Of a stretch of DNA of 36,073 nt, positions 17,778 through 35,731 are shown piece after piece; position 1 is the first letter of the stretch, and each line of letters opens with the position of its first letter. The notes under the pieces were generated by a model, which had not been told where the DNA came from, did no database searches, and saw only the letters and a program-made list of their open reading frames with translations. Both the position numbers and the translations under genes were made by a program. This stretch comes from Lachnospiraceae bacterium. Lineage in GTDB: Bacteria; Bacillota; Clostridia; Lachnospirales; Lachnospiraceae. The stretch covers positions 1-36,073 of the forward strand of contig SVFB01000110.1 in assembly GCA_015057085.1 (NCBI GenBank). Reading direction: 5' to 3'.

Positions 17778-17786
17778 GAGGAAGAT

Positions 17787-18674
17787 ATGAAAGAGAAGAC
17801 ATTTTCAGGTTATCAAATTCTGTCCAATGCCGTTATGATCATTTGGACATTGTTAATCATCTTACCATTTTTACTTTTGTTTATGTCATCCATTACGGAT
17901 GAAAATGTGTTGGTTGCTTATGGATATTCGTTCTTTCCGAGAAAGTTTTCTGTTGCATCCTATGCCTATATCATTCGTTCGGGCATAAAGATTTTAAAAG
18001 CTTACGGAGTCAGTATTGGAGTGACAGCGGTGGGCGTATTCTTCCACGTATTTCTGGCGGCTATGATGGCATATCCGCTGTCCTGTAAGAATTTGCCGGG
18101 TAGAAAAGTTCTAAACTTTTATGTGTTTTTCACCATGTTATTCAATGGCGGAATTGTACCAAGTTATTTGATGTGGTCTGCGTTTGGTGTCAAAGATACA
18201 ATCCTTGCGCAATTGCTTCCAAATTTTTTGGTCAGCGCATGGAATGTAATGATGATTCGCACCTATTTCACCACCAGCATTCCGGATTCGCTTTATGAAG
18301 CGGCAGAAATAGATGGAGCATCTCAATTCCAGATATTCAGAAAAATCGTGCTACCGCTTGGTAAGCCGATTCTGGTTACCATAGGAACCTTTGCGGGCTT
18401 AACATATTGGAATGATTGGACCAACGGATTGTATTATTTGCAGAAAAACAAAGAATTATATAATGTGCAGAATTTACTGAATCAAATGGTTTCCAATATT
18501 CAGTTTTTGGCATCCAGCGCAAATTCTAATGTGACAAGTGCTTCTGCGCAGATTCCGTCCACCGGAATCCAGATGGCGATTGCCTTTGTTGCAATTTTGC
18601 CGATTATGCTGATATTCCCATTCTTCCAGAAATATTATTCAAAGGGATTAACCCTCGGTGGAGTAAAGGGATAA
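17787..18674 (+). CDS. Carbohydrate ABC transporter permease, LplC/YtcP type
   Basis: This 295-residue second permease of the importer has six hydrophobic segments and the EAA loop YEAAEIDGASQFQIFRKI. Its C-terminus, FPFFQKYYSKGLTLGGVKG, is the near-invariant end of this permease group. AGGAGG at 17776-17781 begins in the stop codon of the first permease, so the two are tightly coupled. Confidence 0.93.
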   Translation: MKEKTFSGYQILSNAVMIIWTLLIILPFLLLFMSSITDENVLVAYGYSFFPRKFSVASYAYIIRSGIKILKAYGVSIGVTAVGVFFHVFLAAMMAYPLSCKNLPGRKVLNFYVFFTMLFNGGIVPSYLMWSAFGVKDTILAQLLPNFLVSAWNVMMIRTYFTTSIPDSLYEAAEIDGASQFQIFRKIVLPLGKPILVTIGTFAGLTYWNDWTNGLYYLQKNKELYNVQNLLNQMVSNIQFLASSANSNVTSASAQIPSTGIQMAIAFVAILPIMLIFPFFQKYYSKGLTLGGVKG

Positions 18675-18696
18675 AGGATAAATCGTCTTAGATATT

Positions 18697-18725
18697 TTGA
18701 CAGCGAAAGCTGTTTGAAATATAAA
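18697..18725 (+). promoter_or_regulatory. Strong internal promoter for the binding-protein gene
   Basis: TTGACA (18697-18702) and TATAAA (18720-18725) are 17 bases apart, in the 89-base gap between the second permease and the lipoprotein gene. It would let the binding protein be made in excess over the permeases. Confidence 0.7.
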
Positions 18726-18763
18726 TGTAATGTATTGCAAAATTTTAAGGAGGGTAAAGCAAT

Positions 18764-20374
18764 ATGAAAAAGAAAGTAGTGAGTGCACTTTTGGTTGCTG
18801 CTATGGCCATGGGAACATTGGCAGGATGCGGCGGCAAGGATGACAGCAGCCAGGGAAATGCAACCGGAGCTGTATCGGAGAACGGAACCACAAAGACCTC
18901 TGTTGGAGAGTATACTGCAGAGAATCCTTATCATCTGGTATTTGAGTATATCGAATTCTATGAGCAGGATGAAACTGCGCGTCAAGCTGTTGAAGATGAA
19001 ATCAACAAGTATATGACAGAGAATTATCAGATCGAAGTAGAACTTCTTCCGGTATCCTTTGCAGATTATGCAACCAATACCCAGTTAATGTTAACCGGTG
19101 GTGACGAACTCGATGTCATTCCGATTATGTACAATTATGCAGCAAGCTGGATCAACATGGATGGAATTTATGATATGTCATCAATGATGGATTCAGAAGA
19201 TGGACAAAAGATTGTTGAGGCACTCGGTGGGGAAGAGACTGCTTATGTAGGTCAGATGAACGGAATCTTATTTGGATTCCCGGCAAACAAGGAATCTGTA
19301 GAATTGGGCGGCCTTTGCATGAGAGCCGATGTCTGTGATGAACTTGGATTGACCGAGAAATATAATTTGGATAAAGAAAATTCTGATACCTATGATGGCA
19401 CTTCCATCACATGGGAAGAGGCAGAAGAAATCTTTGCAGCAGTAAAGGCGGCAAAACCGAACATGACACCATTATATTTGTACAATACAAGTCAGAATGC
19501 ACGTTTTGTATCTTTTGATACATTAGTTGACAGTTTTGGTGGCCTTGATCTTGCAGAAGATAAGGAATCTACTACTGTTGTGAATTTGTTTGAGACAGAT
19601 ACATACAAGGATTATGTATATATGATGGCTGATTGGTATGATAAGGGATATATTTATCCGGATGCAGCCACCGATACACAGGGAACAGCTGCTATGATGC
19701 AGGCCGGAAATACCTTCTCATATGCAACCGCGATTAAGCCGGGATTTTTATCAGAGGCTGAATCTGCAAACGGATGTGAGTGCTATGTTATCTATGTGGA
19801 GCCAAAGAATGATAAGTATATCGGAACCATGAACGTTTCCTTCATCGACACCGGTATTGCAAACAACTCTAAAGATCCGGAAATGGCATTTAAGTTTATT
19901 TCTGCATTATATAGTGATGCAACACTTTATAACTTATGGCAGTATGGAATCGAGAACGTGAACTATCAGATTCTCGAGGATGGCACCGCTTATTTTGTAG
20001 ATGGTGAGGATGGAACTAATTACAAGTATCATCAAAATACAGGATGGGCAATGGGTAACCAGTTCCAGTCACTTGTATGGAATGACGGAACAAAGAATGC
20101 CGATTACTGGGATCTTTTGAAGTCACACAATGATAATGCATATTATACTGCAGCTTATGGATTTATGTGGGATAGTTCAGAATATCAAAATGAGATGTCT
20201 GCGCTGTCTACCGCACTTAGTACCTATCAGGCAACACTTGAGACCGGTACATGCGGAACCGCAAAAGTACAGGAAACATTGGATGCTTTAAATGAAGCTT
20301 TAAATGCAGCAGGTTTACAGACTGTTATCGAAGAAAAGCAAAATCAGTTAAATGATTGGCTGAAAGAACAATAA
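18764..20374 (+). CDS. Extracellular sugar-binding lipoprotein, LplA/YtcQ type
   Basis: This 536-residue solute-binding protein has a lipoprotein signal ending LAGC, with Cys22 as the lipid-anchored residue, followed by a flexible Gly/Ser/Asp linker. The body has features of large family-1 binding proteins. The late region (GIANNSKDPEMAFKFISALY, then LWQYGIENVNYQI) matches the DUF3502-type end of LplA-like proteins that pair with LplB/LplC permeases. The ligand is probably an oligosaccharide, but its identity is unknown. A ribosome site, AGGAGGG, precedes the ATG. It has its own promoter and is followed by palindromic elements. Confidence 0.9.
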   Translation: MKKKVVSALLVAAMAMGTLAGCGGKDDSSQGNATGAVSENGTTKTSVGEYTAENPYHLVFEYIEFYEQDETARQAVEDEINKYMTENYQIEVELLPVSFADYATNTQLMLTGGDELDVIPIMYNYAASWINMDGIYDMSSMMDSEDGQKIVEALGGEETAYVGQMNGILFGFPANKESVELGGLCMRADVCDELGLTEKYNLDKENSDTYDGTSITWEEAEEIFAAVKAAKPNMTPLYLYNTSQNARFVSFDTLVDSFGGLDLAEDKESTTVVNLFETDTYKDYVYMMADWYDKGYIYPDAATDTQGTAAMMQAGNTFSYATAIKPGFLSEAESANGCECYVIYVEPKNDKYIGTMNVSFIDTGIANNSKDPEMAFKFISALYSDATLYNLWQYGIENVNYQILEDGTAYFVDGEDGTNYKYHQNTGWAMGNQFQSLVWNDGTKNADYWDLLKSHNDNAYYTAAYGFMWDSSEYQNEMSALSTALSTYQATLETGTCGTAKVQETLDALNEALNAAGLQTVIEEKQNQLNDWLKEQ

Positions 20375-21989: not shown

Positions 21990-23216
21990 ATGGACAAGTT
22001 GAAATATGCAGGAAAGAGAGTTTTGGTAGTATGTTCAAGACAAATCTGCTATTTCAGCGGTAATTTCTTTGCTGCGCAGATGGCTGATGCATTTGAGCGT
22101 CTTGGATGTGAAGTGACAAGGCTTGAATTTACCCTAGACGATGATTTGGATCGGATTCTTGTGCCTTTTCATTATTCCAACTTCGATCTGATTATTGATG
22201 TGAATACGCAGATGTGCCATTTGGAGGATGATGATGGAATGGTCTTGGATTTAATCGGAGGACCGTTCTATGATTATATTGTGGACCATCCTTTATTTCA
22301 CTATAACAGTTTGAACTCGCCGATTAAGGATTTACATGCAATTACCCTTGATCGAGGACAAAAGGAATATATAGATCGCTATTACAAAAATGTAAAATCA
22401 TCACTGTTCATGCCACTGTCAGGAAACGAGGCTGTGGAGCAGACGAAATTGACGGCCAAGCCGGAGCGTATTCTTTTGATGAGTACTTATGTGCCGCCGC
22501 AGAAGTCCTATGAGGTGGTGGAATCATCTCCGGAGCTTTTGATGAAATTGCAAAAGGGCATCATTGATATCAGAACCCAGGATCCGTATGTTACGAATGA
22601 AGCAGTTTTAGAGACTGTTTTAAAAGATATTGGATTTGGAGTACAATCCTGGGAAGAAATCGATGATCAGCAGTTTGCTCATTTGTTAAATGCATGCTAT
22701 CCGGCTGATGTTTATATCCGCAATTATTTCAGAGATAAGACTACCAGAGCGTTGCTTGCTGCCGGAATCCCAATTGTGGTTGTGGGAGAGGGTTGGTATG
22801 AATTTAAGCATTCAAAAGAATATTTATTGCAAATACAAAAACCTTGTGACTTCTCTTTGTCCTATGAGAGGATTGCAAAGGAACATATTATCTTAAATAA
22901 TGCACCGATGTTTCCGGATGGAATGCATGACCGTGTTATTGGTGGAATGGCAAACCATTGTGCTGTTCTGACGGAGCGGACCGCCTATTTGGAAGAGACC
23001 TTTAAGGAGGGAAAAAATATTGCTTTTTATGATGCTAGAAAACTCTCTACTTTGGGGGATGTGGCAACAGCTCTTTTGACCAGGCCATCCGCAGTTATGG
23101 ATTTGCAGGAAGAGGGGTATATTGCCTACAAAAAGCATCATACCTGGGATCATCGCGCATTGCAATTATTGGAGGAAGTTTATGGCCATTCGCCATCCGA
23201 TAGAACCAATTTATGA
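21990..23216 (+). CDS. CgeB-like glycosyltransferase family protein
   Basis: This 408-residue protein looks like a GT-B type glycosyltransferase of the CgeB/Glyco_trans_1_2 group. The first half shows Rossmann-like strands (RVLVVCSRQICYFSG and FDLIIDVNTQ). The second half has IVVVGEGWYEF and a C-terminal block NNAPMFPDGMHDRVIGGMA then LTERTAYLEETFKEG, typical of the donor-binding end of this group. Donor and acceptor are unknown. GGAGG precedes the ATG by five bases. Its last 35 bases overlap the start of the repair fusion, indicating translational coupling. Confidence 0.72.
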   Translation: MDKLKYAGKRVLVVCSRQICYFSGNFFAAQMADAFERLGCEVTRLEFTLDDDLDRILVPFHYSNFDLIIDVNTQMCHLEDDDGMVLDLIGGPFYDYIVDHPLFHYNSLNSPIKDLHAITLDRGQKEYIDRYYKNVKSSLFMPLSGNEAVEQTKLTAKPERILLMSTYVPPQKSYEVVESSPELLMKLQKGIIDIRTQDPYVTNEAVLETVLKDIGFGVQSWEEIDDQQFAHLLNACYPADVYIRNYFRDKTTRALLAAGIPIVVVGEGWYEFKHSKEYLLQIQKPCDFSLSYERIAKEHIILNNAPMFPDGMHDRVIGGMANHCAVLTERTAYLEETFKEGKNIAFYDARKLSTLGDVATALLTRPSAVMDLQEEGYIAYKKHHTWDHRALQLLEEVYGHSPSDRTNL

Positions 23217-24588
23217 TGAACAGACAAAAGTCTTGATTTTAGGATCTTTTCCATCAGTGAAATCAAGAGAACAGGGATTTTTCTATGGGCACCCGCAGAA
23301 TCGCTTTTGGAGGGTGCTTTCAGCTGTATTGGGCTGTGCCTGCCCAAATACAATTGAGGAAAAGACTAAGATGTTGAAAGCCCACGGAATCGCAGTATGG
23401 GATGTGATTGCATCTTGCAATATCAAAGGAAGTTCTGACGCATCCATCAAGGATGTAGTGCCGAATGATTTAGAACGGATTCGAACCACCGGACAAATCC
23501 GGGCAGTATATTGCAACGGAAGCGCTGCTTTTTCGCTGTATGAGAAATATATTTTGCCGAAATACAAAAAGATGAAGGGTTGCGCCTTTGCAACGCCGAT
23601 CAAATTGCCGTCCACAAGCCCTGCCAATGCGATTTGGAAAGAGCGCGCATTGATTGGAGCATGGAGCAGAATTATGACGGCATGCCGGCGGAAGAATATA
23701 GAAAATGATTATTATTCCTTGAGCGATTATGCAATGGATGCTTATGGGAAAAAGCTATATCGCCTTTCATTAGATGGTGGATTTACCTGTCCAAACCGGG
23801 ATGGCAAGATTGATACCCATGGCTGTATTTTCTGTGATGCAGGTGGTGCAGGCGATTTTGGAGGAGGAGGCAAGGAGCGTAGGCTGCCAATCGCCGAACA
23901 GTTAGAGAATCAAAAGCAGTTGATTGCACCGAAACTTCCGAAGACAAAGCCCGTAGGCTATATTGCATATTTTCAGTCTTTTACCGGAACCTATGCGCCA
24001 ATCGAATATTTACGAAAGCAGTACGAGGAAGCAATCAAGGATCCGCAGGTGAAAGTGCTTTCCATTGCAACCCGTCCGGATTGCCTTGGAGAGGATGTGC
24101 TTGTATTATTGCAGGAAATGAATCAAAAGATACCTGTATGGATAGAACTTGGTCTTCAGACATCAAACGAAAAGACTGCCAGATATATCAGGCGCGGATA
24201 CGACAGAAAAGTATATGAGACTGCCGTGCGTCATTTAAACGAAATCGGGATTTCACAGATTATCACGCATATCATTTTAGGGCTTCCGGGAGAGCGGGAA
24301 GAGGATATGAAAAAGTCCGTATCTTATGCGATATCCTGCGGCACCACAGGCCTGAAACTTCAATTATTACATGTGTTGGAAAATACAGATTTGGCTTGCG
24401 ATTACGAAAATGGATTGTTTGAAGTGCTTTCTTTTGAAGATTATATTCGAATTACGAAGGAATGCGTCGCTTTGATTCCGCCGGATGTGGTGGCACATCG
24501 TTTGACCGGAGACGGGAATAAGCGCCATCTGATTGCTCCATTGTGGAGCGCAGACAAAAAGCGAGTCAATAATGCAATGAAAAAATAA
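23182..24588 (+). CDS. Fusion: DNA-deoxyinosine glycosylase plus TIGR01212-type radical SAM protein
   Basis: One uninterrupted frame of 468 residues joins two domains. Residues about 1-165 resemble family-6 uracil-DNA-glycosylase-like hypoxanthine glycosylases: LILGSFPSVKSREQGFFYGH, then PQNRFW with the likely catalytic Asn, and a late LPSTSPANA. Residues about 175-468 resemble YhcC/TIGR01212 radical SAM proteins: YRLSLDGGFTCPNRDGK, GCIFC supplying two of the three cluster cysteines, then ELGLQTSNEKTARYI and HIILGLPGEREEDM. The ATG at 23182 has GGAGG six bases upstream; the longer frame to 23122 lacks such a site. The radical SAM family's role is unsettled, and coupling to inosine repair is unexplained. 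Confidence 0.85.
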   Translation: MAIRHPIEPIYDEQTKVLILGSFPSVKSREQGFFYGHPQNRFWRVLSAVLGCACPNTIEEKTKMLKAHGIAVWDVIASCNIKGSSDASIKDVVPNDLERIRTTGQIRAVYCNGSAAFSLYEKYILPKYKKMKGCAFATPIKLPSTSPANAIWKERALIGAWSRIMTACRRKNIENDYYSLSDYAMDAYGKKLYRLSLDGGFTCPNRDGKIDTHGCIFCDAGGAGDFGGGGKERRLPIAEQLENQKQLIAPKLPKTKPVGYIAYFQSFTGTYAPIEYLRKQYEEAIKDPQVKVLSIATRPDCLGEDVLVLLQEMNQKIPVWIELGLQTSNEKTARYIRRGYDRKVYETAVRHLNEIGISQIITHIILGLPGEREEDMKKSVSYAISCGTTGLKLQLLHVLENTDLACDYENGLFEVLSFEDYIRITKECVALIPPDVVAHRLTGDGNKRHLIAPLWSADKKRVNNAMKK

Positions 24589-24605
24589 CACCTTTATGAA
24601 AAATG

Positions 24606-24634
24606 GACCCTTAAAAGCGAAGGGTCTTTTTTTT
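24606..24634 (+). terminator. Intrinsic terminator after the repair fusion gene
   Basis: GACCCTT (24606-24612) pairs with AAGGGTC (24620-24626), followed by eight T residues to 24634. It marks the border between the 20615-24588 operon and the glycan locus. No convincing promoter is visible in the 40 bases between it and the next gene. Confidence 0.85.
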
Positions 24635-24673
24635 ATGCTTATAAACATAGGGAAGAAAGGATGCAAAGGAACG

Positions 24674-26470
24674 ATGAAAAATCAAACGAAAAAAATCATC
24701 ATCGGCTGCAGTCTTTGGATTGCAGCAGTGATATCTATTATTTGTGTGGTGGTGATTAAAAACATGAAAACAAACAATTACACAATTAATCGGGAATTTC
24801 ATTCGAGCGCATTCGGAGAACAAGTTTATATCTTTCAGGAATCGGATGATCATCAGGAAATTCAAAAAACGATTGATTTGATTTATGAGAAACAAGAGAC
24901 AAATCAGTTCGGAAATGAGCGTTATACCTTTTATTTTATGCCGGGAAATTATGATGATATCGATGTGAATGTAGGATTTTATACCACGATAGCAGGTCTT
25001 GGAGCATTGCCTACAGATGTCAAGCTGGGAAGCCTAAATTGCTATGCAAGATGGCTGGGGACAGATGAGAGCAATCATAATGCATGCTGCAATTTCTGGC
25101 GCAGCGCCGAGAATCTGGAGGTGCTGGGGAATGTTACCTGGGCAGTCTCTCAGGCCACTGATATGAGAAGAATGCAAATCGATGGCGCACTTTATCTTCA
25201 TGATGATTACGGATGGGCCAGCGGTGGTTTTTTGGCGGATTCAAGAGTTGAGAAAATGATTGACTCCGGTTCTCAGCAGCAGTGGTTGTCCAGAAACAAT
25301 TCATACAAGGTTTGGATGGGCGAGAATTGGAATATTGTTTTCGCAGGAGATGAAGAGGAAGGGCTGCCACATGGAACTTGGCCCCTTTATTCCTATACGA
25401 GAGCAGAAGCGCCGGAGTCCATGAGAGAGAAACCGTATCTGACATGGGATGAAGAAGCCGGATATGGAATCTTTTTGCCGGATGTAAGAGAAGATGCTGT
25501 AGGAACTTCTTGGTCAAAAGAAGAAAACTGCCCGGGGCAGTTAATCCCAATGTCAAAAATTTATGTGGTTACGGAAGCAAATTTTGATGCTGCTAAGCTA
25601 CAAAAGCAGCTGGATGCCGGCAAGCATATTTTGTTTACATCGGGAATCTATGAAATCGATCAAACACTGACTGTGACAAAGGATGACACTGTGATATTGG
25701 GAACCGGTCTGGCGACCTTGCGCAGTGTGGATGGAAATTGCTGTCTTATGACTGATGGCGCAAAAGGCTGTGTGATTGCCGGATTACTGTTTGATGCAGG
25801 AACCACGGAATCAAAGACTTTGATGCAAATCGGTGAGACGGAAGAAGAGGATTCCGAAATCTATTTGAGTGATTTGTTCTTCCGTGTGGGCGGATGTGCT
25901 ACGAATCGCCCAACCACAACAAAGTCCTGTGTCATCATCGATGCAGATCATGTAGTAGGAGATAACTTCTGGGTGTGGAGAGCAGACCATGGAGACCAGG
26001 TGGGCTGGGATTTGAATACAGCACAAAACGGTATCATCATCAACGGAGATCATGTTTCGATGTATGGCTTGATGGTGGAACATTTCTTGGAATATCAGAC
26101 TATCTGGAATGGTGAAAACGGAAAAATCGTGATGTATCAAAGCGAGATTCCTTATGATGTGCCATCGCAGGATGTTTGGATGGCGCCGGATGGAAGAAAC
26201 GGATATGCATCCATATATGTCAACGAAAATATAAAACAGTTTCATGGCATTGGAATCGGTATATATCTTTATAACCGGGATGCGCAGGTGGATTTGGATA
26301 CTGCAATGGTAATGCCGGATGCACCGGAGGTATCTGCCTATCATATTATCACGGTGATGCTAAACGGCTATCCGGGTATGAATCATGTATTGAATGATGC
26401 AGGAAATAGTGTGAGAAGCATAACTGCGGAAGCATATGTTCTCGAGTATTGTAATGGAGAGTGGAAGTAA
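24674..26470 (+). CDS. Membrane-anchored predicted beta-helix protein, uncharacterised family
   Basis: The protein has 598 residues. A single N-terminal membrane segment after KNQTKK (about residues 8-28) puts the rest outside the cell. The body reads as a repetitive beta-helix of the pectate-lyase superfamily type: YFMPGNYDDIDVNVGFY, NFWRSAENLEV, GSQQQWLSRN and VILGTGLATL. A conserved-looking cluster with acidic residues, WRADHGDQVGW (Asp438, His439, Asp441) and then VEHFLEYQTIW (Glu469, Glu473), is a candidate active site. From memory it resembles actinobacterial secreted proteins annotated as coagulation factor 5/8-type or adenylyl cyclase, and may be distantly related to GH55. Next to two phosphorylases, a cell-surface glucan hydrolase or lyase is likely. 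The ATG at 24674 is chosen for its membrane anchor; its ribosome site is close and modest. Confidence 0.7.
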   Translation: MKNQTKKIIIGCSLWIAAVISIICVVVIKNMKTNNYTINREFHSSAFGEQVYIFQESDDHQEIQKTIDLIYEKQETNQFGNERYTFYFMPGNYDDIDVNVGFYTTIAGLGALPTDVKLGSLNCYARWLGTDESNHNACCNFWRSAENLEVLGNVTWAVSQATDMRRMQIDGALYLHDDYGWASGGFLADSRVEKMIDSGSQQQWLSRNNSYKVWMGENWNIVFAGDEEEGLPHGTWPLYSYTRAEAPESMREKPYLTWDEEAGYGIFLPDVREDAVGTSWSKEENCPGQLIPMSKIYVVTEANFDAAKLQKQLDAGKHILFTSGIYEIDQTLTVTKDDTVILGTGLATLRSVDGNCCLMTDGAKGCVIAGLLFDAGTTESKTLMQIGETEEEDSEIYLSDLFFRVGGCATNRPTTTKSCVIIDADHVVGDNFWVWRADHGDQVGWDLNTAQNGIIINGDHVSMYGLMVEHFLEYQTIWNGENGKIVMYQSEIPYDVPSQDVWMAPDGRNGYASIYVNENIKQFHGIGIGIYLYNRDAQVDLDTAMVMPDAPEVSAYHIITVMLNGYPGMNHVLNDAGNSVRSITAEAYVLEYCNGEWK

Positions 26471-26471
26471 T

Positions 26472-29162
26472 ATGACAGGATGTGAATTTATAGAATCAGG
26501 AGAAGTATTTCAGTTACATGGGGCGCAGCGCTATCGCGAATTATATTTCCCGATTGCAAATGAATACGGATTAAAATCAGCGGTTACTCCGAATATGGCA
26601 GGAGATGCGAAATTGGATCAAAACCATTTTCTCTATGAACCGGTAAGCGCGGCGGATCCGGTGAATCGCAGATTTGCAAGAAACTTTTGGGTTGTGTCAA
26701 AGACCGGAGAAATCTGGTCAGCTGTGGGAAGTTCAGCAACACAGCGGGCGGCACTTTATACGGATCAGGAAGAAGAAATTACAATTACGGCCGGATACAT
26801 GTGGCACAAAATGAGCCTTTCCGGGAAATTGATGCCAATTCTATCGGAGGTGACGATCTTTGCACCGGTGGATAAGAATATGGAAGTGATGAAGGTGGAA
26901 TTGACGAATCAGTCAAATGAACCAATTCACTTTCAGCCATGTGTGGCAATTCCATTATTTGGAAGAAGCGCAGATAATATTCGAGACCATCGACATGTGA
27001 CAGGACTTCTTCACAGGGTATCTGTAGAACATAACATCATAGAAGTCAATCCTACATTATCCTTTGATGAGAGAGGCCATAAGCAAAATGATACCAGATA
27101 TTTTGCTTATGCAATGAAGTCAGATCATACCATGCCGAAACAGTTTTATGTCAATCAAAATGATTTCATCGGAGAAGGCGGAGACTTTGAGCGCCCGATG
27201 GCGCTTTTGATGAGACAGGAAGGCGTGGCAAACGGCTATCGGGAAGACGGCCAAGAAGCGATGGGTGGTTTCTTATTTGAGGAAGAGACCCTGATGCCAC
27301 AAGAGACGGTATCCTACATCATTTATGTAGGAACAGCATATACCGAAAATGAGATTGAAAGCATGATTGGGCAATTGCCGGATCAAAATGCAGTGGACTT
27401 AGAACTTGAGCGCACGAAGCAGTATTGGCAAAACAAGGTAAATGTGAGATGTGCCACAGGAGATGTGAAGTTTGATCGATACATGGATTGGGTCAGCTTC
27501 CAGCCGGAGCTTCGTCGTTTGTACGGATGTTCCTTCCTGCCGCATCATGATTATGGCAAAGGCGGAAGAGGATGGCGGGATTTGTGGCAGGATTGTCTGG
27601 CACTACTTTTGATGAACCCTTCCGGCGTTCGTCAGATGCTTTTGTCCAATTTCGCCGGCGTTCGTATTGACGGAACCAATGCCACCATTATCGGGGAACA
27701 TCAAGGATCCTTTATTGCCGATCGCAATTCCATTACCCGTGTGTGGATGGATCACGGTGTATGGCCGCTTAAGACGACCAAACTCTATATTGACCAGACC
27801 GGTGATCTGGAAATCCTAAATCAGGAAGTAAACTATTTCAAAGACCGTCAGGTGATGCGCGGAACAGATATAGATTCTATGTGGGATCCAAACTGCACCT
27901 GGCTTAAGGATACCAGAGAAAAAGAATACAAAGGCAGCGTTCTCGAACATTTGATTTTGCAAAACCTGACCGCCTTTTGGGAAGTGGGAAAGCATAATCA
28001 TATCAAATTGCGTGATGCGGATTGGAATGATGCATTGGATATGGCCGGAGAAAAGGGTGAAAGTGTTGCTTTTTCAAATGCCTATGCCCAAAACCTGTTA
28101 GAACTTGCGGAATTGGTAAAGGCGCTTGGTGAGATTTCGCCGGAGGTAATGTTGCTTCAGGAAATGCAGGAGCTGTTACAAGATGACTGTGACTTATACG
28201 AAAATCCGGAGGAAAAGAATCGCCTGCTGAATGAGTACAGCCAAAATGTAAAGCATCATGTAAGCGGTATTCGCGTTATGGTCTCAACGGATGCTCTTGC
28301 AGAATCTCTAAAGGCGAAGGGCCGGTGGATGCTTGAACATATCCGAAAGATGCAGTGGGTGATTGATCCACAGGGAGGAGGATTCTTCCGCGGTTACTAT
28401 GACAATGACGGCCAGCCACTTGATGGAATCGTAAATCAGTCGGCACAGTTGATGTTGACCGGTCAGGTATTTTCGATTATGGGCGGTACTGCAACAGATG
28501 AGATGGTATCTCATATCTGTGAATCCGTAGACCGGTATTTATTCGACCAGGATTGCGGAGGATATCGATTAAATACAGATTTCAAAGAAATCAAAACCAA
28601 TATGGGACGCATGTTCGGATTTGCATATGGGGAAAAAGAGAATGGAGCTGTTTTTTCTCATATGGCAGTCATGTATGCAAATGCATTATATAGCAGAGGA
28701 TTCGTCAAAGAAGGTTATCGTGCATTAAAAGCATTATATGACCAGTCTATGAATTTTGAAACGAGTCATATATATCCGGGAATTCCGGAATATTTTGGAA
28801 GAGGCGGAAGAGGACTCTATGCTTATTTAACAGGAGCAGCAAGTTGGTATTTGTTGACTGTAATGAATCAGATGTTTGGTATCAGAGGATTGCTTGGAGA
28901 TCTGGTCATTGAGCCGAAATTGTTAAAAGAGCAGTTTGATCAAAAGCAAGAGGTGGGAATGAACCTTCGCTTTGCAGGTTACGACTGGCAGATTCTATAC
29001 GAAAATCCGGGAAATGCGGAATATGGCAATTATCGAATCCATGCAGCTTTTTTGGATGGCAAACCAATTGAGATAAGAGAAAAACAATGTGTATTGCCAT
29101 TAACAGAAATCAAAAAGCTAGATGAAAATCAAGTACACAAAATAAAAATTGTATTGCAATAA
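26472..29162 (+). CDS. GH94-type glycoside phosphorylase (disaccharide phosphorylase)
   Basis: This 896-residue cytoplasmic enzyme has no signal peptide and belongs to GH94. The family splits a beta-glycosidic bond with phosphate to give an alpha-sugar-1-phosphate. The N-terminal beta-sandwich spans about 1-270 and the (alpha/alpha)6 barrel follows. GGRGWRDLWQD (residues 364-374) is the sugar-binding block. DADWNDALDM carries Asp520, which aligns with the general acid of characterised GH94 enzymes. The C-terminus has SHIYPGIPEYFGRGGRG. Length is closer to laminaribiose phosphorylases (about 900 residues) than to cellobiose phosphorylases (about 810), so laminaribiose is the preferred guess and cellobiose a real alternative. 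The ATG at 26472 follows the previous stop by one base. Confidence 0.88.
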   Translation: MTGCEFIESGEVFQLHGAQRYRELYFPIANEYGLKSAVTPNMAGDAKLDQNHFLYEPVSAADPVNRRFARNFWVVSKTGEIWSAVGSSATQRAALYTDQEEEITITAGYMWHKMSLSGKLMPILSEVTIFAPVDKNMEVMKVELTNQSNEPIHFQPCVAIPLFGRSADNIRDHRHVTGLLHRVSVEHNIIEVNPTLSFDERGHKQNDTRYFAYAMKSDHTMPKQFYVNQNDFIGEGGDFERPMALLMRQEGVANGYREDGQEAMGGFLFEEETLMPQETVSYIIYVGTAYTENEIESMIGQLPDQNAVDLELERTKQYWQNKVNVRCATGDVKFDRYMDWVSFQPELRRLYGCSFLPHHDYGKGGRGWRDLWQDCLALLLMNPSGVRQMLLSNFAGVRIDGTNATIIGEHQGSFIADRNSITRVWMDHGVWPLKTTKLYIDQTGDLEILNQEVNYFKDRQVMRGTDIDSMWDPNCTWLKDTREKEYKGSVLEHLILQNLTAFWEVGKHNHIKLRDADWNDALDMAGEKGESVAFSNAYAQNLLELAELVKALGEISPEVMLLQEMQELLQDDCDLYENPEEKNRLLNEYSQNVKHHVSGIRVMVSTDALAESLKAKGRWMLEHIRKMQWVIDPQGGGFFRGYYDNDGQPLDGIVNQSAQLMLTGQVFSIMGGTATDEMVSHICESVDRYLFDQDCGGYRLNTDFKEIKTNMGRMFGFAYGEKENGAVFSHMAVMYANALYSRGFVKEGYRALKALYDQSMNFETSHIYPGIPEYFGRGGRGLYAYLTGAASWYLLTVMNQMFGIRGLLGDLVIEPKLLKEQFDQKQEVGMNLRFAGYDWQILYENPGNAEYGNYRIHAAFLDGKPIEIREKQCVLPLTEIKKLDENQVHKIKIVLQ

Positions 29163-29173
29163 GGGAGGAAATT

Positions 29174-32100
29174 ATGACAGAACAAATAAAGGACTACGGA
29201 AGAAAATCAGAGTTTTCGGGTTTCCTTCCGGGAATTGCAGGTATCAAAGGAATTCCAATCTGGTGCTATTATGTGAATCGCGGTCAGGCAGTCTGCAGCT
29301 TCGGTGTAGACAATAAGGATGGCGCAATCATGGAATTCTTTCCGGCACATACTGCTTATGAGCGTGTAAAAATCAATGGATTTCGTACTTTGATTCGAAA
29401 GAATGATACATTTACAGAACCTTTTTTCGATGAAGAAAAGCAACCGATAATGGAAATTGAAAAGAATTGTCTTTCTTTGACCGAACGTGATGAAAATAAT
29501 CAAATTGAAACATGTGTCAGCTATTTTATATTGCCGGAAGAACCAATTGGCGCTCTGGTAAGAAAAGTGACCGTAAAGAATCTGGGAGAGAAGGCACACT
29601 TTGAAATCATTGACGGAATGCCTGCAATTATATGCTATGGCGTGGGAAATGATTCTATGAAAAATATGCTTCAGACGACAAAAGCCTGGATGCAGGTGGA
29701 GGATTTGGATGCGCGTATTCCGTTTTATCGTGTGAGAGCCAGTATGGATGATTCCGCGCAGGTTACAGAAGTAAAGGGCGGTAATTTCGCAATGGCGATG
29801 GATGCAGAGGGCAATTTGATGCAACCAATCGTGGATGCTGAGGCTGTATTCGATTATGATAAATCTCTATTTCGTCCTGTACGATTCGAGAAAGAAGGAT
29901 TGGCAGCAGTATGCAATTATCCGCAGATTACTTCAAATCTGATGCCGATGGCAATGTTTGCAAAGGATGTCAAATTAGAGAAGGATGAGACTTTAACGAT
30001 TTATGAAATCATAGGAAGAGTTGACAAAAAGTCTCTTTTGGAAGAATTCTTAAAAGATAAAAAGAATGGCGCATATTTTGAGGAAAAGCTTGTGCGCGCA
30101 AAAGAAATCGTAGAATCCTTATGCTCTGCAATTGAAACAAAGACGGCAAATCCGAGATTTGATGAATATTGCAAATATACATTTATGGATAATGTGCTTC
30201 GCGGCGGTCATCCGATGAAGCTGGGAAATAATAAGATTTTTTATGTATATTCCAGAAAACATGGAGATTTGGAGAGAGATTACAATTATTTTTCAATGCT
30301 TCCAGAATATTATTCTCAGGGAAACGGAAATTTCAGAGATGTGAATCAAAACCGTAGATGTGATACATTCTTTCATCCTTATGTAGGAAGAGAAAATATG
30401 CATATGTTCTACAGCTTGATTCAATTGGATGGCTATAATCCGCTCTCAATCGAGAAGTTGACCTACGAAATTGAGATTTCCAAGGCGAAACAGCTGCTGG
30501 CAGCAGTGGAGCAACAGGAGAATCTGATCAGGGAATTAGAGCAGGGCTTTACGCCGGGACATTTATATCAGCTGTTGCAAGAACACGTAGATCCTGCACA
30601 GCTTGAGGAAGAGTTCGTTTCGATTATGGATTTTGCCGAGGTGAAAAATCGAGCATCCTTTGGAGAAGGATATTGGTGTGATCACTGGACATACAATCTG
30701 GATTTGGTGGAAGAATATCTTTCCCTGTTTCCGGAAAAAGAAGAGGAAATGCTCTTCGAAAAAGCATATACCTTCTTTGTGTCTCAGGCGAATATCAACG
30801 AACGGCGCAAGCGTTATGAAATCACAGATCATGGTGTACGACAGTATTATGCATTAGACAAAGACAGCTTGCGAAATACAAAGGATAAGCGTCTACGTTC
30901 TAATTTCGGAACAGGTGAAATTATCTATACAGATTTAATGGAAAAGCTTGTATTGCTCAGCACTCTAAAGTTTGCCACTCTTGATGCTTACGGAATGGGA
31001 ATTGAAATGGAGGGCGGAAAACCGGGCTGGTATGATGCATTAAACGGCGCTCCGGGTATGTTGGGCTCTTCTATGGCAGAAACCTATGAACTTGCAAGAA
31101 TGCTTGATTATACCATCAGTGCGCTGAAGAAGTATCCAAAGCAGCTAAGCTTGCTGAAAGAAACTGCAGCAATATTAAAAGAGATTGCACTCATCAATGA
31201 AATGGAAAAAGAGTCAATTGAAAGCGCAAAAGAGGTTTTGGCATTCTGGAACAAAATCAATGATGCAAAAGAAGATTATCGAAGACGTACTTATGAGGGA
31301 ATTTCCGGAGAAACAGTGGAAGTATCAAGTGAAGATATCTTACGCGCGTTAGAAGGTTTTCGCGAGACAGTTGCCATCGGTATCAAAAAGGCAATTGGAT
31401 ACGGAAATGGAATTTGCCCAACTTATTTTACCTATGATGTGACCAAGTATGAGAAAAACGAAGATGGAATCTTCCCTCTTTCATTTATGGTACAAACGGT
31501 TCCGTATTTCTTAGAGGGACCGGTGCGCTATATGAAGCTGCAAAATGATGGCAGTGTATTATCAAAAGAGCAGCTATATCAACATGTGAAAGCATCTGAT
31601 ATCTTCGATCAGAAGCTTCACATGTATAAGGTAAATGCATCTTTGGAGAATGCTTCTTATGAACTCGGAAGAACCCGTGCATTCACGCCAGGATGGCTCG
31701 AGAATGAATCCGTATTTCTTCATATGGAATACAAGTATTTGCTTGAAATATTAAAAAGCGGACTTTATGAGGAATTTTTTGATGACTTTTCACATATGGC
31801 AATCCCGTTTTTGGATCCTGAAATGTATGGAAGAAGCACCCTGGAAAATTCATCATTCCTTGCAGGCAGCAAGAATCCAAATGAGAAAATACATGGAAAA
31901 GGCTTTGTGGCAAGATTATCCGGTTCCACTGTGGAATTTATCAGCATGTGGAAGCGTATGATGTTTGGAGAAAAGCCCTTTGGATTAAGGGATGGAAAAT
32001 TATATGCACAACTGAATCCTGCCATTCCCGCATATTTGATCGGCGAAGATTGTCAGGTGCAAGCAACCTTGCTCGGACATGTAAAAGTAGTTTACAGCTT

Positions 32101-32266
32101 TGAAACTCAAAGGGATTATTTCCCGGGAAATTATGAAATTGTCGAGACTGTTTTGGAGTATTCAGACGGTCGCAAGCAGACAATCTCCGGCGGATTGTTA
32201 GAAGAACAGGAGGCAAAAGCATTAAGAGAGGGCAAGATTGGTAAAATCTTCCAAAAATTAAAATAG
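29174..32266 (+). CDS. GH149/GH161-type oligosaccharide phosphorylase
   Basis: This 1030-residue cytoplasmic protein belongs to the inverting phosphorylase clan around GH94 but lacks the short GH94 architecture. The block GNFRDVNQNRR (Asp389) corresponds to the GH94 sugar-binding block. PGWYDALNGAPGMLGSSM carries Asp621 in the general-acid position. Between them, EGYWCDHWTYNLDL and ANINERRKRYEI are typical of the longer enzymes that act on beta-1,3-gluco-oligosaccharides. I favour GH161, then GH149; the assignment rests on remembered motifs and length. It would shorten imported oligosaccharides and pass the disaccharide to the GH94 enzyme. GGGAGG lies before the ATG, 11 bases after the GH94 stop. 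Confidence 0.78.
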   Translation: MTEQIKDYGRKSEFSGFLPGIAGIKGIPIWCYYVNRGQAVCSFGVDNKDGAIMEFFPAHTAYERVKINGFRTLIRKNDTFTEPFFDEEKQPIMEIEKNCLSLTERDENNQIETCVSYFILPEEPIGALVRKVTVKNLGEKAHFEIIDGMPAIICYGVGNDSMKNMLQTTKAWMQVEDLDARIPFYRVRASMDDSAQVTEVKGGNFAMAMDAEGNLMQPIVDAEAVFDYDKSLFRPVRFEKEGLAAVCNYPQITSNLMPMAMFAKDVKLEKDETLTIYEIIGRVDKKSLLEEFLKDKKNGAYFEEKLVRAKEIVESLCSAIETKTANPRFDEYCKYTFMDNVLRGGHPMKLGNNKIFYVYSRKHGDLERDYNYFSMLPEYYSQGNGNFRDVNQNRRCDTFFHPYVGRENMHMFYSLIQLDGYNPLSIEKLTYEIEISKAKQLLAAVEQQENLIRELEQGFTPGHLYQLLQEHVDPAQLEEEFVSIMDFAEVKNRASFGEGYWCDHWTYNLDLVEEYLSLFPEKEEEMLFEKAYTFFVSQANINERRKRYEITDHGVRQYYALDKDSLRNTKDKRLRSNFGTGEIIYTDLMEKLVLLSTLKFATLDAYGMGIEMEGGKPGWYDALNGAPGMLGSSMAETYELARMLDYTISALKKYPKQLSLLKETAAILKEIALINEMEKESIESAKEVLAFWNKINDAKEDYRRRTYEGISGETVEVSSEDILRALEGFRETVAIGIKKAIGYGNGICPTYFTYDVTKYEKNEDGIFPLSFMVQTVPYFLEGPVRYMKLQNDGSVLSKEQLYQHVKASDIFDQKLHMYKVNASLENASYELGRTRAFTPGWLENESVFLHMEYKYLLEILKSGLYEEFFDDFSHMAIPFLDPEMYGRSTLENSSFLAGSKNPNEKIHGKGFVARLSGSTVEFISMWKRMMFGEKPFGLRDGKLYAQLNPAIPAYLIGEDCQVQATLLGHVKVVYSFETQRDYFPGNYEIVETVLEYSDGRKQTISGGLLEEQEAKALREGKIGKIFQKLK

Positions 32267-32274
32267 ACACCACT

Positions 32275-32313
32275 AAAAAAATGACACCAAATTAAAATTT
32301 GGGTCATTTTTTT
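32275..32313. terminator. Terminator after the phosphorylase genes
   Basis: AAAAAATGAC and CCAAAT on the left pair with ATTTGG and GTCATTTTTT on the right, with one bulged A. The A-run on one side and T-run on the other make it able to act in both directions. It lies eight bases after the GH161-type stop codon. Confidence 0.75.
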
Positions 32314-32329
32314 AGGTTATTGGGATTTT

Positions 32330-32335
32330 TATAAT
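32330..32335 (+). promoter_or_regulatory. Possible -10 box for the second binding-protein gene
   Basis: A perfect TATAAT lies 53 bases before the ATG, but the -35 region is only a T-run belonging to the terminator. A separate promoter is expected here because of the terminator; the -35 evidence is weak. Confidence 0.3.
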
Positions 32336-32387
32336 TGACTTATCAACAAGAACAGAAACGTTGAAAACATAAAGGAGGATAAGTTCT

Positions 32388-33788
32388 ATGAAATTAAAAA
32401 AGTTAGTTTCTGTAATCCTTGTGGGCACAATGCTTGCATCTCTCGGTGCATGTGGAAGCTCAGGGGACAAAAACACCCAGACAAGCAATGCAACAAGTGA
32501 AGGCACTGAGCAGGAAATGGTATCTGCAGGCGAGGATGGTATCACAGTTTGGACCTTCACAGAGGATTTGAAGACTATGGCTGAGAAGTATACCGAAGAG
32601 ACCGGTGTAGAAGTTGTAGTTAATATCATTCCAACTGCTGATTATCCGACTAAGCTTACAACAGCAATGCTTGGAAGCTCATGTGATGCAGACATTATCG
32701 TTGGAGAGCCACAGATGTTAGATGACTTCTTCGATAATGGATTCTTTGCAAACCTGGATGAGATGGGTGCACAGGATTATGAAGGACAGATCGTAGACTA
32801 TGTTTGGGAGCGTGGAAAAGATGCTGAAGGAATTCAAAGAGCAATCTCTTATCAGATTACTCCGGCAGGATTCTTCTATCGTCGCGATATCGCAAAAGAA
32901 GTATTCGGTTCAGAAGATCCTGAAGAAATTGGAAAGCTTTTCGCAGATTACGATAGCATCGTAGAAGCTGGAGAGAAGTTAAAAGAAAGCGGATATAGAA
33001 TCTTTGCTTCTGATTCAGAAGTAAGCTATTTCTCAGGAAATGAAGCATGGGTTGTAGATGGTAAGTTAAATGTGGCTGATTGCCGTACTGAATATATGGA
33101 TCTTGTAGTAGATCTTTATCAGAAAGATTTAACTGCTTATGCAAACCAGTGGTCAACACCTTGGTATCAGGCAATGGCTGGAGAGGTTCCAATCTTAACA
33201 GCTGATATCCAGAACTATCAGGATGATTCCGTAAACGTTTGGGATGCTGATCAGTTTGCTGAAGCAACCAAAGATCTTGATACCACTCAGGTATTCGCAT
33301 TCGGACTTCCTTCATGGGGCGTACTTACTATGAGAGATCATGTAGGCGATACAGCAGGTTCATGGGGATTCTGTGCAGGACCTGCACCTGGATTCGGTGG
33401 CGGTACTTATGTAGGTATTGCTGAGACATCTGAGAAGAAGGAAGCTGCTTGGAAGTTCCTTCAGTGGTGCACATTAAACGAAGATACTGCGAACTGGTGG
33501 ATTGAGAAGTCTCAGGGTGATGCTGTTTCTTTGGTCTCTGTATTGGAGGCACATGCATCTGATGAGAACCCAATTTACGGAAATCAGCATATGTATGAAT
33601 TGTTCTTAGAGCTTGCTGAGAAGATTGATTACTCTAAGGTTACCCGTTACGATCAGACAATCGGCGACCTTTGGGGCAAGGCAATCTCCAACATCAAGAC
33701 CGGAGCAATGACAAAGGAAGAAGCAATCGATGACTTCTACGATCAGGTAGAATCAACCTACGCAGGAGAAATCCAGGTAGAACGCTAA
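32388..33788 (+). CDS. Extracellular oligosaccharide-binding lipoprotein
   Basis: This 466-residue family-1 solute-binding protein has a lipoprotein signal ending LGAC with Cys22 as the anchor, then a Ser/Thr/Gly-rich linker. The body opens with ITVWTFTEDLKTMAEKYTEE, DADIIVGEPQMLDDFF and GFFYRRDIAKEVFG, typical of CUT1 sugar importers, and ends with a helical region and VESTYAGE. AGGAGG lies before the ATG. It follows the two phosphorylase genes and precedes two permeases, so it probably captures the oligosaccharides those enzymes use. The ligand is inferred from context. Confidence 0.9.
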   Translation: MKLKKLVSVILVGTMLASLGACGSSGDKNTQTSNATSEGTEQEMVSAGEDGITVWTFTEDLKTMAEKYTEETGVEVVVNIIPTADYPTKLTTAMLGSSCDADIIVGEPQMLDDFFDNGFFANLDEMGAQDYEGQIVDYVWERGKDAEGIQRAISYQITPAGFFYRRDIAKEVFGSEDPEEIGKLFADYDSIVEAGEKLKESGYRIFASDSEVSYFSGNEAWVVDGKLNVADCRTEYMDLVVDLYQKDLTAYANQWSTPWYQAMAGEVPILTADIQNYQDDSVNVWDADQFAEATKDLDTTQVFAFGLPSWGVLTMRDHVGDTAGSWGFCAGPAPGFGGGTYVGIAETSEKKEAAWKFLQWCTLNEDTANWWIEKSQGDAVSLVSVLEAHASDENPIYGNQHMYELFLELAEKIDYSKVTRYDQTIGDLWGKAISNIKTGAMTKEEAIDDFYDQVESTYAGEIQVER

Positions 33789-33796
33789 TTAAATAT

Positions 33797-33836
33797 GGGC
33801 CCGTCTGAGGGCGGGCCCGTGTTTCTATATTTTTTA
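33797..33836 (+). terminator. GC-rich intercistronic stem-loop after the binding-protein gene
   Basis: GGGCCCG (33797-33803) pairs with CGGGCCC (33812-33818), followed by a T-rich but interrupted tract. It lies between the binding-protein gene and the first permease. It is likely a partial terminator or mRNA 3' protector that raises binding-protein level relative to permeases. Confidence 0.6.
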
Positions 33837-33860
33837 TCATTTTCAAATTGAGGATTTGTT

Positions 33861-34790
33861 ATGGCAAAGACAACAAAAAAACATTCCAAAATGACTGCTT
33901 ATAACAACTGGGGCTATGTATTTGTAATTCCATTTGTTGTGGTATTTTGTATTTTTAGTATTTATCCGGTTCTCAGAACACTTTGGCTTAGTTTTACAAA
34001 CTTAAAGGTGATGGGAACTTCAAAATTTATTGGCTTAGATAATTATATCCGTGTGGCAACCGACAAATTCTTCTGGAGAGCTGTCTGGAATACGGTTCGC
34101 ATCTGGATTGTAAATATTGTATTACAGTTAGGTCTCGCCTTCCTGTTGATGATGGTATTCTCCGATGTGAAATACAAATTCAAAGGTTTGCGCGTTTTTC
34201 GATTGGTATATTACCTTCCGAATTTAATTGCAGCAACTTCAATTGCTTTCCTCTTCCAGACACTTTTGGATTGGAAATTTGGTTCTTTTAACCAGTTGAT
34301 TGCCTTGATTTACAAGCTCTTCGGTCAGACCTATCACTATGTGAACTGGATAGGAGATCCGAAGTATGCGGGAAATACCATTGCAGTGATTCAGGCATGG
34401 GTTTGGTTTGGTAATTCATTCCTGATGTTGATGGCAGGTGTGCAGGGAATCAACCGTGATTACTATGAGGCAGCAGCCATTGATGGAGCAGGAAGATGGA
34501 CCGTGTTTGCAAAGATTACGCTTCCGTTGATTCGCCCAATTATGATGTATGTTGCGATCACTTCATTGATTGGTGGTTTACAGATGTTTGATCTTCCATA
34601 TTTGATGGTTCAGGCGTCTAGTTCATCCTACGATTCAGTTCAGACTGCTATGATGTATCTGTATCGATTCGGATTCCACCAGGGTACGATTCAGACAGGA
34701 TATGCTTCATCTGTGGCATACATGCTATTCCTCATTATTTTGTCGGTATCTTTGATCCAGCTGAAGCTTTTCAAGAGAAAGGAGAATTAG
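33861..34790 (+). CDS. Carbohydrate ABC transporter permease, MalF type
   Basis: This 309-residue permease has six hydrophobic segments (the first is VFVIPFVVVFCIFSIYPVL) and the EAA loop YYEAAAIDGAGRWTVFAKI. It forms the first half of the second importer. GAGG about seven bases before the ATG supports the start. The second permease follows four bases after its stop. Confidence 0.93.
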   Translation: MAKTTKKHSKMTAYNNWGYVFVIPFVVVFCIFSIYPVLRTLWLSFTNLKVMGTSKFIGLDNYIRVATDKFFWRAVWNTVRIWIVNIVLQLGLAFLLMMVFSDVKYKFKGLRVFRLVYYLPNLIAATSIAFLFQTLLDWKFGSFNQLIALIYKLFGQTYHYVNWIGDPKYAGNTIAVIQAWVWFGNSFLMLMAGVQGINRDYYEAAAIDGAGRWTVFAKITLPLIRPIMMYVAITSLIGGLQMFDLPYLMVQASSSSYDSVQTAMMYLYRFGFHQGTIQTGYASSVAYMLFLIILSVSLIQLKLFKRKEN

Positions 34791-34794
34791 GAAG

Positions 34795-35667
34795 ATGGAC
34801 GGTACTAGAACTTTGAAATTAAAAAAGGTCCGTAAGCCTACAAGCTTTTATGTTTGGTCTACTATCATCTATATCTTTTTGATTGCTTTGGCTGTCATTT
34901 GTATCATTCCGTTTTGGATGATGATAGTGAATGCAACCAGATCGGGTGATCAGATTATCAAGGGATTTACTTTGCTTCCGAGCGATCAGCTTGCGAATAA
35001 CTGGAAGACAGTATTTGGTCATTTCAACTTATTCCGCGGTATGTTAAATTCCCTTATGATTGCTGTACCTGCAACTGTGCTTTCAATTTATTTTTCGACA
35101 TTGACTGCATTTGCACTTGCATTTTACAAGTTTAAGGGCAATAAGGTTATCTTCATGACCATATTGATTTTCATGATGATTCCGGGACAGCTTTCATTGA
35201 TTGGTTTCTACCAGTTATGTGCGAAGATGCATTTGATTGACAGTTACATTCCTTTGATTGTGCCTGCAATTGCATCTCCGGGAACAGTATTCTTCCTCAG
35301 ACAATATATTTTGGCTTCTATGCCTCCGTCATTGTTGGAAGCAGCGCGTATTGATGGCGCATCGGAGTTGTTTAGTTTTCATCGCATTGTTTTTCCGATT
35401 GTGCTTCCGGCGATTGCGACAATGGGTATTATGGGATTCATCGGTAACTGGAATTCATATTTGCTTCCGATGATTTTGATTAATACCAATGAGAAGATGC
35501 CACTCACCGTAATGATGACTACGTTGAATGCATCGATTGACATTACCAAGAATCAGGGTGCAACTTATCTTTGTGTGGCGATTTCGGTTGTCCCGATTTT
35601 GCTGGTATTCTTCTCATTCTCTAAATACATAATCAGCAGCGTCTCCGCAGGTGCGGTGAAAGAGTAA
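34795..35667 (+). CDS. Carbohydrate ABC transporter permease, MalG type
   Basis: This 290-residue partner permease has six hydrophobic segments, FFLRQYILASMPPSLLEAAR leading into the EAA loop EAARIDGASELFSFHRIV, and the late GFIGNWNSYLLPMILI. With the upstream permease and lipoprotein it makes a CUT1-type importer without its own ATPase. A strong terminator follows at 35704. Confidence 0.93.
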   Translation: MDGTRTLKLKKVRKPTSFYVWSTIIYIFLIALAVICIIPFWMMIVNATRSGDQIIKGFTLLPSDQLANNWKTVFGHFNLFRGMLNSLMIAVPATVLSIYFSTLTAFALAFYKFKGNKVIFMTILIFMMIPGQLSLIGFYQLCAKMHLIDSYIPLIVPAIASPGTVFFLRQYILASMPPSLLEAARIDGASELFSFHRIVFPIVLPAIATMGIMGFIGNWNSYLLPMILINTNEKMPLTVMMTTLNASIDITKNQGATYLCVAISVVPILLVFFSFSKYIISSVSAGAVKE

Positions 35668-35703: not shown

Positions 35704-35731
35704 AAGGGCTCCGCATTGCGGAGCCCTTTTT
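35704..35731 (+). terminator. Strong intrinsic terminator closing the glycan locus
   Basis: AAGGGCTCCGC (35704-35714) pairs perfectly over 11 bases with GCGGAGCCCTT (35718-35728) around ATT, followed by TTT. Confidence 0.9.

Follow-up and report, generated by a model that had tools for sequence, protein, structure and literature searches.

Six collinear genes on the + strand in the genome of a gut-type Lachnospiraceae bacterium raise the question of which glucan they serve, how its fragments reach the cytoplasm and what controls the genes. They lie at 24674-35667 of the window, the term used here for the whole stretch analysed, which is the entire contig G000:C124 (SVFB01000110.1; 36,073 bases) of the Lachnospiraceae bacterium assembly GCA_015057085.1 (2.79 Mb, 128 contigs, 96.7% complete). 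The original prediction, made on the same DNA, placed a surface protein, two phosphorylases and importer genes together in one direction, and open reading frame (ORF) calls and profile searches bear this out for all six. The genes probably belong to a beta-1,3-glucan utilisation regulon which, taken as a whole, comprises a glycoside hydrolase (GH) of family GH55, an importer, the phosphorylases GH161 and GH94, promoters bearing a common motif and a sensor trio acting in trans. Among the common fibres of food and feed are the beta-1,3-glucans of fungi, yeast and algae; the Lachnospiraceae make much of the butyrate in such settings as major producers of it. The six genes are as follows.

24674..26470, + strand: GH55 beta-1,3-glucanase with an N-terminal membrane anchor (phmmer and realignment; anchor by inspection)
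26472..29162, + strand: GH94 laminaribiose-phosphorylase-like enzyme, ORF opening at 26436 (Pfam and phmmer)
29174..32266, + strand: GH161 beta-1,3-oligoglucan phosphorylase (phmmer and NCBIfam)
32388..33788, + strand: sugar-binding lipoprotein of the importer (profile search and PDB sequence match)
33861..34790, + strand: ATP-binding cassette (ABC) permease A (profile searches)
34795..35667, + strand: ABC permease B (profile searches)

In the proposed mechanism, the membrane-anchored GH55 would trim beta-1,3-glucan outside the cell, with products that are predicted. The binding protein and two permeases, driven by a MalK-type ATPase that is shared and encoded outside the locus, would import laminari-oligosaccharides. 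Judged from characterised relatives, the intracellular GH161 would take glucose units off as glucose-1-phosphate down to laminaribiose, which GH94 would split into glucose-1-phosphate and glucose. Two promoters, before the GH55 gene and the binding-protein gene, bear the same operator-like motif, to which an activator function is attributed, and the likely activator is a lipoprotein/YesM/YesN trio that is encoded beside the locus in many relatives and on another contig here.

Phosphorylases

The GH94 protein (ORF 26436-29162, probable start 26472) scores 872 bits against the laminaribiose phosphorylase (LBP) 6ggy over query residues 9-894 of 896, and no more than 100 bits against other solved chains. 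Its PF17167 match reaches 109 bits against a cut-off of 27. The enzyme had been predicted as GH94, and its sequence suggests that it is laminaribiose-phosphorylase-like, nearest to LBP among the solved GH94 enzymes. The 1030-residue protein had been described as of GH149/GH161 type, of which only the second part holds. It matches 9h8v with 1320 bits and 9qqk, named GH161A, with 1319 bits over query residues 5-1025 of 1030, and GH149 was rejected at 80.7 bits against the NCBIfam model cut-off of 1150.

Beta-1,3 specificity, and not beta-1,4, is favoured by the nearest solved relatives of the enzymes, which are a GH55, a laminaribiose phosphorylase and GH161, and by sequence neither phosphorylase falls in a clade of other specificity. 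The pairing of a disaccharide phosphorylase with a longer-chain phosphorylase is supported by the GH94 and GH161 matches. With laminaribiose phosphorylase, one glucose of each chain remains free. The complete conversion to glucose-1-phosphate that had been predicted does not hold, since the GH161 enzyme PapP acts on a degree of polymerisation of 3 and longer and stops at laminaribiose, according to the available text of PMC6484121. With PapP-like and LBP-like activities, every chain unit but one would thus become glucose-1-phosphate and that one would stay free as glucose.

The locus in relatives

Of the named relatives found, Agathobacter ruminis JK623 is the nearest, with a GH161 that is 74% identical. 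Its gene order is the same (GH55, GH94, GH161, binding protein, permeases), with permease identities of 96% and 92%. Further GH161 loci were fetched from 24 other strong-match genomes of the genus and from 13 of the 19 other family genomes with a strong match, and a search of public contigs contributed the best 80 of at least 553 confirmed relatives, a set biased to close relatives. Merging of loci with identical GH161 ORFs gave 106 distinct loci, the window excluded, among which copies from metagenome-assembled genomes with differing ORFs may persist.

Contig ends make the neighbour counts around GH161 lower bounds. GH94 lies at most 4.5 kb upstream in 78 of the 106 loci; the importer binding protein is near GH161 in 65 and the permeases in 64 each. 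A second binding lipoprotein is found in 59, GH30 in 35, a chemoreceptor in 19, GH55 in 16, GH3 in 11 and GH16 in 2, the identities of GH30, GH16 and the chemoreceptor having been checked by Pfam on representatives. A frequent order is (chemoreceptor)-(GH55)-GH94-GH161-(GH30)-binding protein-permeases-lipoprotein-kinase-regulator, where brackets mark the optional genes.

Operator-like motif and promoters

Upstream regions of the relatives show a recurrent AAAAAAATGACACC element. In the window, the related features are these.

24581..24601, + strand: operator-like motif AAAAAWRAYACC-N6-AAA upstream of GH55 (exact match and position weight matrix, PWM)
24605..24627, + strand: intrinsic-terminator-like hairpin between the operator core and the -10 box (z -4.3 for 24578-24640)
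24634..24639, + strand: predicted -10 box TATGCT, 53 nt from the motif start
32277..32297, + strand: operator-like motif upstream of the binding-protein gene, overlapping an inverted repeat (exact match, PWM, fold z -7.9)
32330..32335, + strand: predicted -10 box TATAAT, 53 nt from the motif start

The core AAAAAWRAYACC has 102 + strand matches in the 106 loci (2.03 Mb), against 1.7 expected from dinucleotide shuffles. It stands before the binding-protein gene in 53 cases, GH94 in 21, the chemoreceptor in 7, GH161 in 6, GH55 in 5 and other genes in 4. A TATAAT follows 49 of the 53 sites before the binding-protein gene, always at +52 to +54 and in 46 cases at +53. In the two window promoters, the distance from the motif start to the -10 box is 53 nt, and the motif ends immediately 5' of the expected position of a -35 box. 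The window has exactly two matches to the longer pattern AAAAAWRAYACC-N6-AAA (24581 and 32277), and these are the only two in the whole 2.79-Mb assembly. A PWM built from 50 core sites of loci whose GH161 is less than 57% identical ranks the two window sites at the top, with 36.4 and 35.1 bits and the 24581 site second-best; the next match has 14.8 bits. The start of GH55 at 24674 is favoured over that of the longer ORF, since 24596, where the latter opens, lies upstream of the predicted -10 box (24634-24639).

A whole-genome motif scan covered 4 chosen genomes of 62 in the genus, namely the own genome, A. ruminis and two that consist of one or two contigs. It gave two matches in the own genome, two in A. 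ruminis, three in G209 (two of which are one palindromic site) and two in G202, and the reversed-pattern control gave 0 matches in all four. All but one of the nine matches fall within the locus. The exception, in A. ruminis, precedes an off-locus GH16 gene (L197:653-4885, G208 contig 134) that encodes 1410 residues with a GH16 domain at E 1.4e-17; the motif starts 109 nt before the start codon and has TATAGT at +53. This site is the best independent support for the motif, because it was not used in defining it. The near-unique operator gives a simple listing of the genes devoted to beta-1,3-glucans, as the GH16 match suggests.

Some motif sites lie within inverted repeats with A and T runs and resemble bidirectional terminators. 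The 32277 site and many GH94 sites are of this form (A-run, stem, T-run), and RNA 32272-32320 folds with a z of -7.9, which speaks for a bidirectional intrinsic terminator or attenuator between genes and not an activator site. This explanation is unlikely. The sequence itself is conserved beyond what shuffling gives, and the -10 spacing is fixed at 52-54 nt wherever TATAAT is present. By inspection, the A. ruminis GH16 site has no matching right arm, yet keeps its TATAGT at +53. The core of the GH55 promoter (24581-24592) is outside the predicted hairpin, though the last bases of the motif are in the stem. The activator site is preferred, and the 32277 site, with its strong predicted hairpin, may in addition terminate the GH161 transcript, as the hairpin at 24605..24627 probably terminates the upstream gene.

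Along with the inverted repeats, several observations weigh against reading the motif as the operator of a regulon. The motif was counted in the same loci that revealed it. Six of the 102 core matches are inside ORFs, and a further 12 matches fall on the minus strand. Among 66 binding-protein genes, 13 have no exact core, 9 of these with a near variant; within 250 nt, the core precedes only 20 of 73 GH94 genes and 4 of 16 GH55 genes. In A. ruminis, the promoter of GH55 carries no more than a variant of the motif.

Chemoreceptor genes near GH161 with the core upstream are found in L066, L095, L096, L098, L105, L125 and L128, which suggests chemotaxis toward beta-glucan breakdown products. The own genome encodes a 683-residue chemoreceptor-like protein on G000:C128 (L185:2454-4502), 51% identical to one beside the G233 locus. 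G000:C128 is small, also has a GH3 match and gave no operator-like match in the genome-wide scan.

Probable remote regulator

The statement that the locus has no regulator holds for this contig; orthologues of the regulator genes that lie beside related loci are found on contig G000:C30. In relatives, permease B is present in 67 loci and the contig stops there in 7; in 54 of the other 60, the lipoprotein is among the next two genes. When a relative's lipoprotein served as the query, the own genome yielded a single match, on G000:C30. The trio at G000:C30:14224-19179 consists of a binding lipoprotein, a YesM-type kinase and a YesN-type AraC response regulator, the last two being a His_kinase PF06580 sensor and an AraC-type response regulator by Pfam. 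The three proteins are 65/57/48% identical to trio partners and 75/75/65% identical to a set of the same order in A. ruminis.

Across the 62 genus genomes, the lipoprotein (E <= 1e-60) is found in 25 and GH161 in 25, with 24 shared. The exceptions are G223 and G256, which are 75% and 82% complete. The GH161 count refers to those genomes, among the 35 listed at E 1e-3, that score at least 386 bits, and the remaining 10 weak matches are probably GH94. Co-occurrence statistics of this kind ignore phylogeny and partly reflect linkage. The motif is present in 49 of 60 loci with the lipoprotein nearby and in 16 of 46 without it, trio presence being scored by the lipoprotein alone; with long-flank loci only, the numbers are 22 of 27 and 7 of 16 (p 0.018). 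The 11 lipoprotein-positive loci that have no motif and the 16 motif-bearing loci that have no lipoprotein count against the association, and contig ends confuse both figures.

The three genes that precede the C30 trio encode a major facilitator superfamily transporter, a phosphodiesterase-like protein and an alpha/beta hydrolase (the outer two by Pfam, the middle one by inspection). A. ruminis contig C23 has orthologues of these three and of the trio, arranged alike and 65-81% identical, so the separation of locus and trio is common to both species. In G242, the importer and the trio are adjacent and ~55 kb from GH161, with 50-71% identity to the own proteins. Control of the locus by the C30 trio is thus suggested by the synteny in relatives, the co-occurrence and the motif, and the C30 regulator would be the protein that binds the motif.

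A two-component pair at 13729-16741 of the window is a closer candidate in position, as it shares the contig, the strand and the YesM/YesN type with the expected regulator. It was rejected as the cognate regulator for its low identity to the trio partners of five loci, with 22-24% for the kinase and 32-41% over 105-185 residues for the regulator, where the C30 pair reaches 55-57% and 47-48%, respectively. The pair also directly precedes permeases and a DUF3502 binding protein of its own, and its control of the glucan locus is very improbable. The region 13729-20374, with this separate YesM/YesN pair, two permeases and the DUF3502 binding protein, is a second uptake locus unrelated to the trio.

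The C30 trio remains the preferred activator. A wider reading is somewhat favoured, in which a family-wide Lachnospiraceae beta-1,3-glucan regulon uses an operator TAAAAAAATGACACC-N5-AAAA that starts ~53 nt upstream of the -10 box and is recognised by the trio. It would join the phosphorylases, the importer, GH55 or GH16 and, in some species, a chemoreceptor. The trio would have been split from the locus in the ancestor shared with A. ruminis and kept working in trans. The motif makes the regulation of GH94-GH161 loci directly testable.

Extracellular step and import

The best solved match of the GH55 protein is 4pew (SacteLam55A), with a phmmer score of 386.8 bits and E 1.9e-114 over query residues 47-581 of 598. 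No Pfam or NCBIfam model matches the protein, which is why it had appeared to be an uncharacterised surface enzyme; it belongs to a known family. Its description as a surface-anchored beta-helix protein is supported by the GH55 membership and by an N-terminal membrane anchor seen on inspection, and a two-domain beta-helix is expected from the family.

Functional residues were taken from the available portion of PMC10637969 and realigned. The SacteLam55A-equivalent residues kept are the general acid E502, the helper Y505, E480, H481, D449, W446, W444, F152, Q174 and S198. The general acid Glu, the helper Tyr and the proton-relay residues of the family are thus present except for T149, which is Cys in the window GH55, C, T or L among aligned relatives and Glu in the fungal MnLam55A (PMC10637969, in part). 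Beside subsite -1, the loop exceeds that of SacteLam55A by 5 residues. Of the three SacteLam55A residues described as blocking subsite -2, two are altered, F144L and Q150C (the chain as aligned reads W143, F144). The long loop, with 4-5 extra residues, is common to 15 other locus-linked GH55s and two unlinked ones (L043 and L005), and is absent in four more distant unlinked GH55s (L006, L007, L009 and L011). The alignment covers 15 of the 16 locus GH55s, L072 with its split gene being left out. In L072 (G205), GH55 is split over two ORFs; a single in-frame TAG also occurs in this genome's lipoprotein gene.

GH55 is found in 12 of the 62 genus genomes, the own included, and all 12 are within the 25 with a strong GH161 match (Fisher p 2.4e-6). 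By coordinates, 11 of the 12 genes are inside the GH161 locus, and the one in G209 is elsewhere. In the family, 7 of 200 sampled genomes have GH55, the own included. A comparison of GH55 and GH161 distances over 14 loci gave a Spearman coefficient of 0.44, with 17 of 2000 permutations as high, which gives co-inheritance only moderate support.

The original prediction saw in this protein the missing extracellular step. That role is uncertain, since the solved bacterial GH55 enzyme is exo-acting (available text of PMC10637969). By analogy, an exo-GH55 would release glucose and gentiobiose or gentio-oligosaccharides and may not feed the importer. If it released only glucose and gentiobiose, the importer would have to live on oligosaccharides made by others. 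Other results also weaken the case for a self-sufficient pathway. No GH16 was found in the own genome, where positive controls matched, and a GH30 query gave no match there in a search without a positive control. GH55 is the sole recognised beta-1,3-glucanase of the regulon here, with GH17, GH64, GH81 and GH128 outside the search and eight GH3 matches elsewhere. The binding protein has its best solved match, a weak one of 52 bits, in the beta-1,2-glucan binder 5ysb (Lin1841), and this bears against the ligand assignment. The set of importer genes had been called complete; the binding protein and two permeases are there, but no ATPase gene is at the locus, and one MalK-type ATPase match lies elsewhere, on G000:C85.

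Phosphorolysis might then feed on laminari-oligosaccharides of other organisms, while GH55 trims chain ends and its glucose and gentiobiose enter by other transporters. This is a serious possibility, though given somewhat less than an even chance. The window GH55 and the 15 locus-linked GH55s aligned retain the exo-type aromatic block F152, W444 and W446, but so do endo-type GH55s (PMC10637969, in the part available). The missing GH16 fits such scavenging, as do the 90 of 106 GH161 loci that have no GH55 within ~9 kb, some of them through contig ends. It is opposed by the operator, as GH55 is preceded by one of only two genome-wide matches, and by genomic linkage, since 11 of the 12 genus genomes that have GH55 carry it inside the GH161 locus. 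The longer loop and the two changed subsite -2 blockers also make products besides glucose possible. In the preferred reading, GH55 may supply the importer, and whether it yields importable oligosaccharides decides if the pathway truly saves energy on the polymer.

Other features of the contig

Two further structures were predicted at the 3' side of the locus.

33791..33824, + strand: strong hairpin between the binding-protein gene and the permeases (hairpin prediction)
35704..35728, + strand: intrinsic terminator past the last permease gene (hairpin and fold; similarity to A. ruminis fades at the terminator)

The first hairpin could possibly serve attenuation or mRNA stabilisation. The contig ends 406 nt beyond the last permease gene, and the A. 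ruminis contig ends ~300 nt beyond its own. A known RNA at the contig end was considered and rejected, with no Rfam match at gathering scores within the window. Viral carriage was likewise rejected; viral contigs were searched with GH94 and with the GH161 alignment, and none was confirmed.

Upstream, 5796-12887 encodes 2363 residues that include seven SpaA prealbumin-like stretches and a domain of collagen-binding type; this protein probably sits at the cell surface. In a single ORF at 23122-24588, a domain like deoxyinosine/uracil DNA glycosylases (TIGR04274) is joined to the radical SAM tRNA-modifying MnmL (TIGR01212), and a relative of 496 residues with 66% identity is at the same place in A. 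ruminis.

Comparison with known systems

GH55: SacteLam55A is a Streptomyces exo-beta-1,3-glucosidase (4pew, 4tz1). The window GH55 resembles it in the general acid, the water network except T149 and the aromatic block. In contrast, it has a membrane anchor, the 5-residue longer loop beside subsite -1, T149C, F144L and Q150C.

Phosphorylases: PsLBP, a Paenibacillus GH94 (6ggy), is alike nearly end to end at 872 bits and differs in organism and locus. The GH161A chains 9h8v and 9qqk are alike end to end at ~1320 bits. The activities of both window enzymes are predicted ones. PapP of Paenibacillus polymyxa is the characterised GH161, to which the likeness is by family and not by direct alignment.

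Mixed-linkage glucan locus: Blautia producta belongs to the Lachnospiraceae. Its mixed-linkage glucan locus, as far as the available text of PMC10318527 describes it, also combines a glucanase, an importer and a GH94 phosphorylase. Unlike the window locus, it has GH16 and a beta-1,4-acting GH94, and laminaribiose and laminaritriose are not phosphorolysed.

GH94-GH161 tandems: In its available text, PMC6484121 (Kuhaudomlarp et al. 2019) founded GH161, described GH94-GH161 tandems with importers mostly without an ATPase gene and proposed sequential phosphorolysis. The terms GH55, regulator, two-component, histidine kinase, Roseburia and Butyrivibrio each occur 0 times in its main text. Among the papers listed in literature searches, no title or abstract opening described GH55 combined with GH94-GH161, which does not establish its absence from print. 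The window locus is like these tandem loci, in the portion of the paper available, in its adjacent GH94 and GH161, its binding protein and permeases and an ATPase gene elsewhere, whereas GH55, the operator-like motif and the remote sensor trio are additions. The core is of a known kind, GH94-GH161 with an importer as published in 2019; the motif nearly confined to the locus and the remote trio are new.

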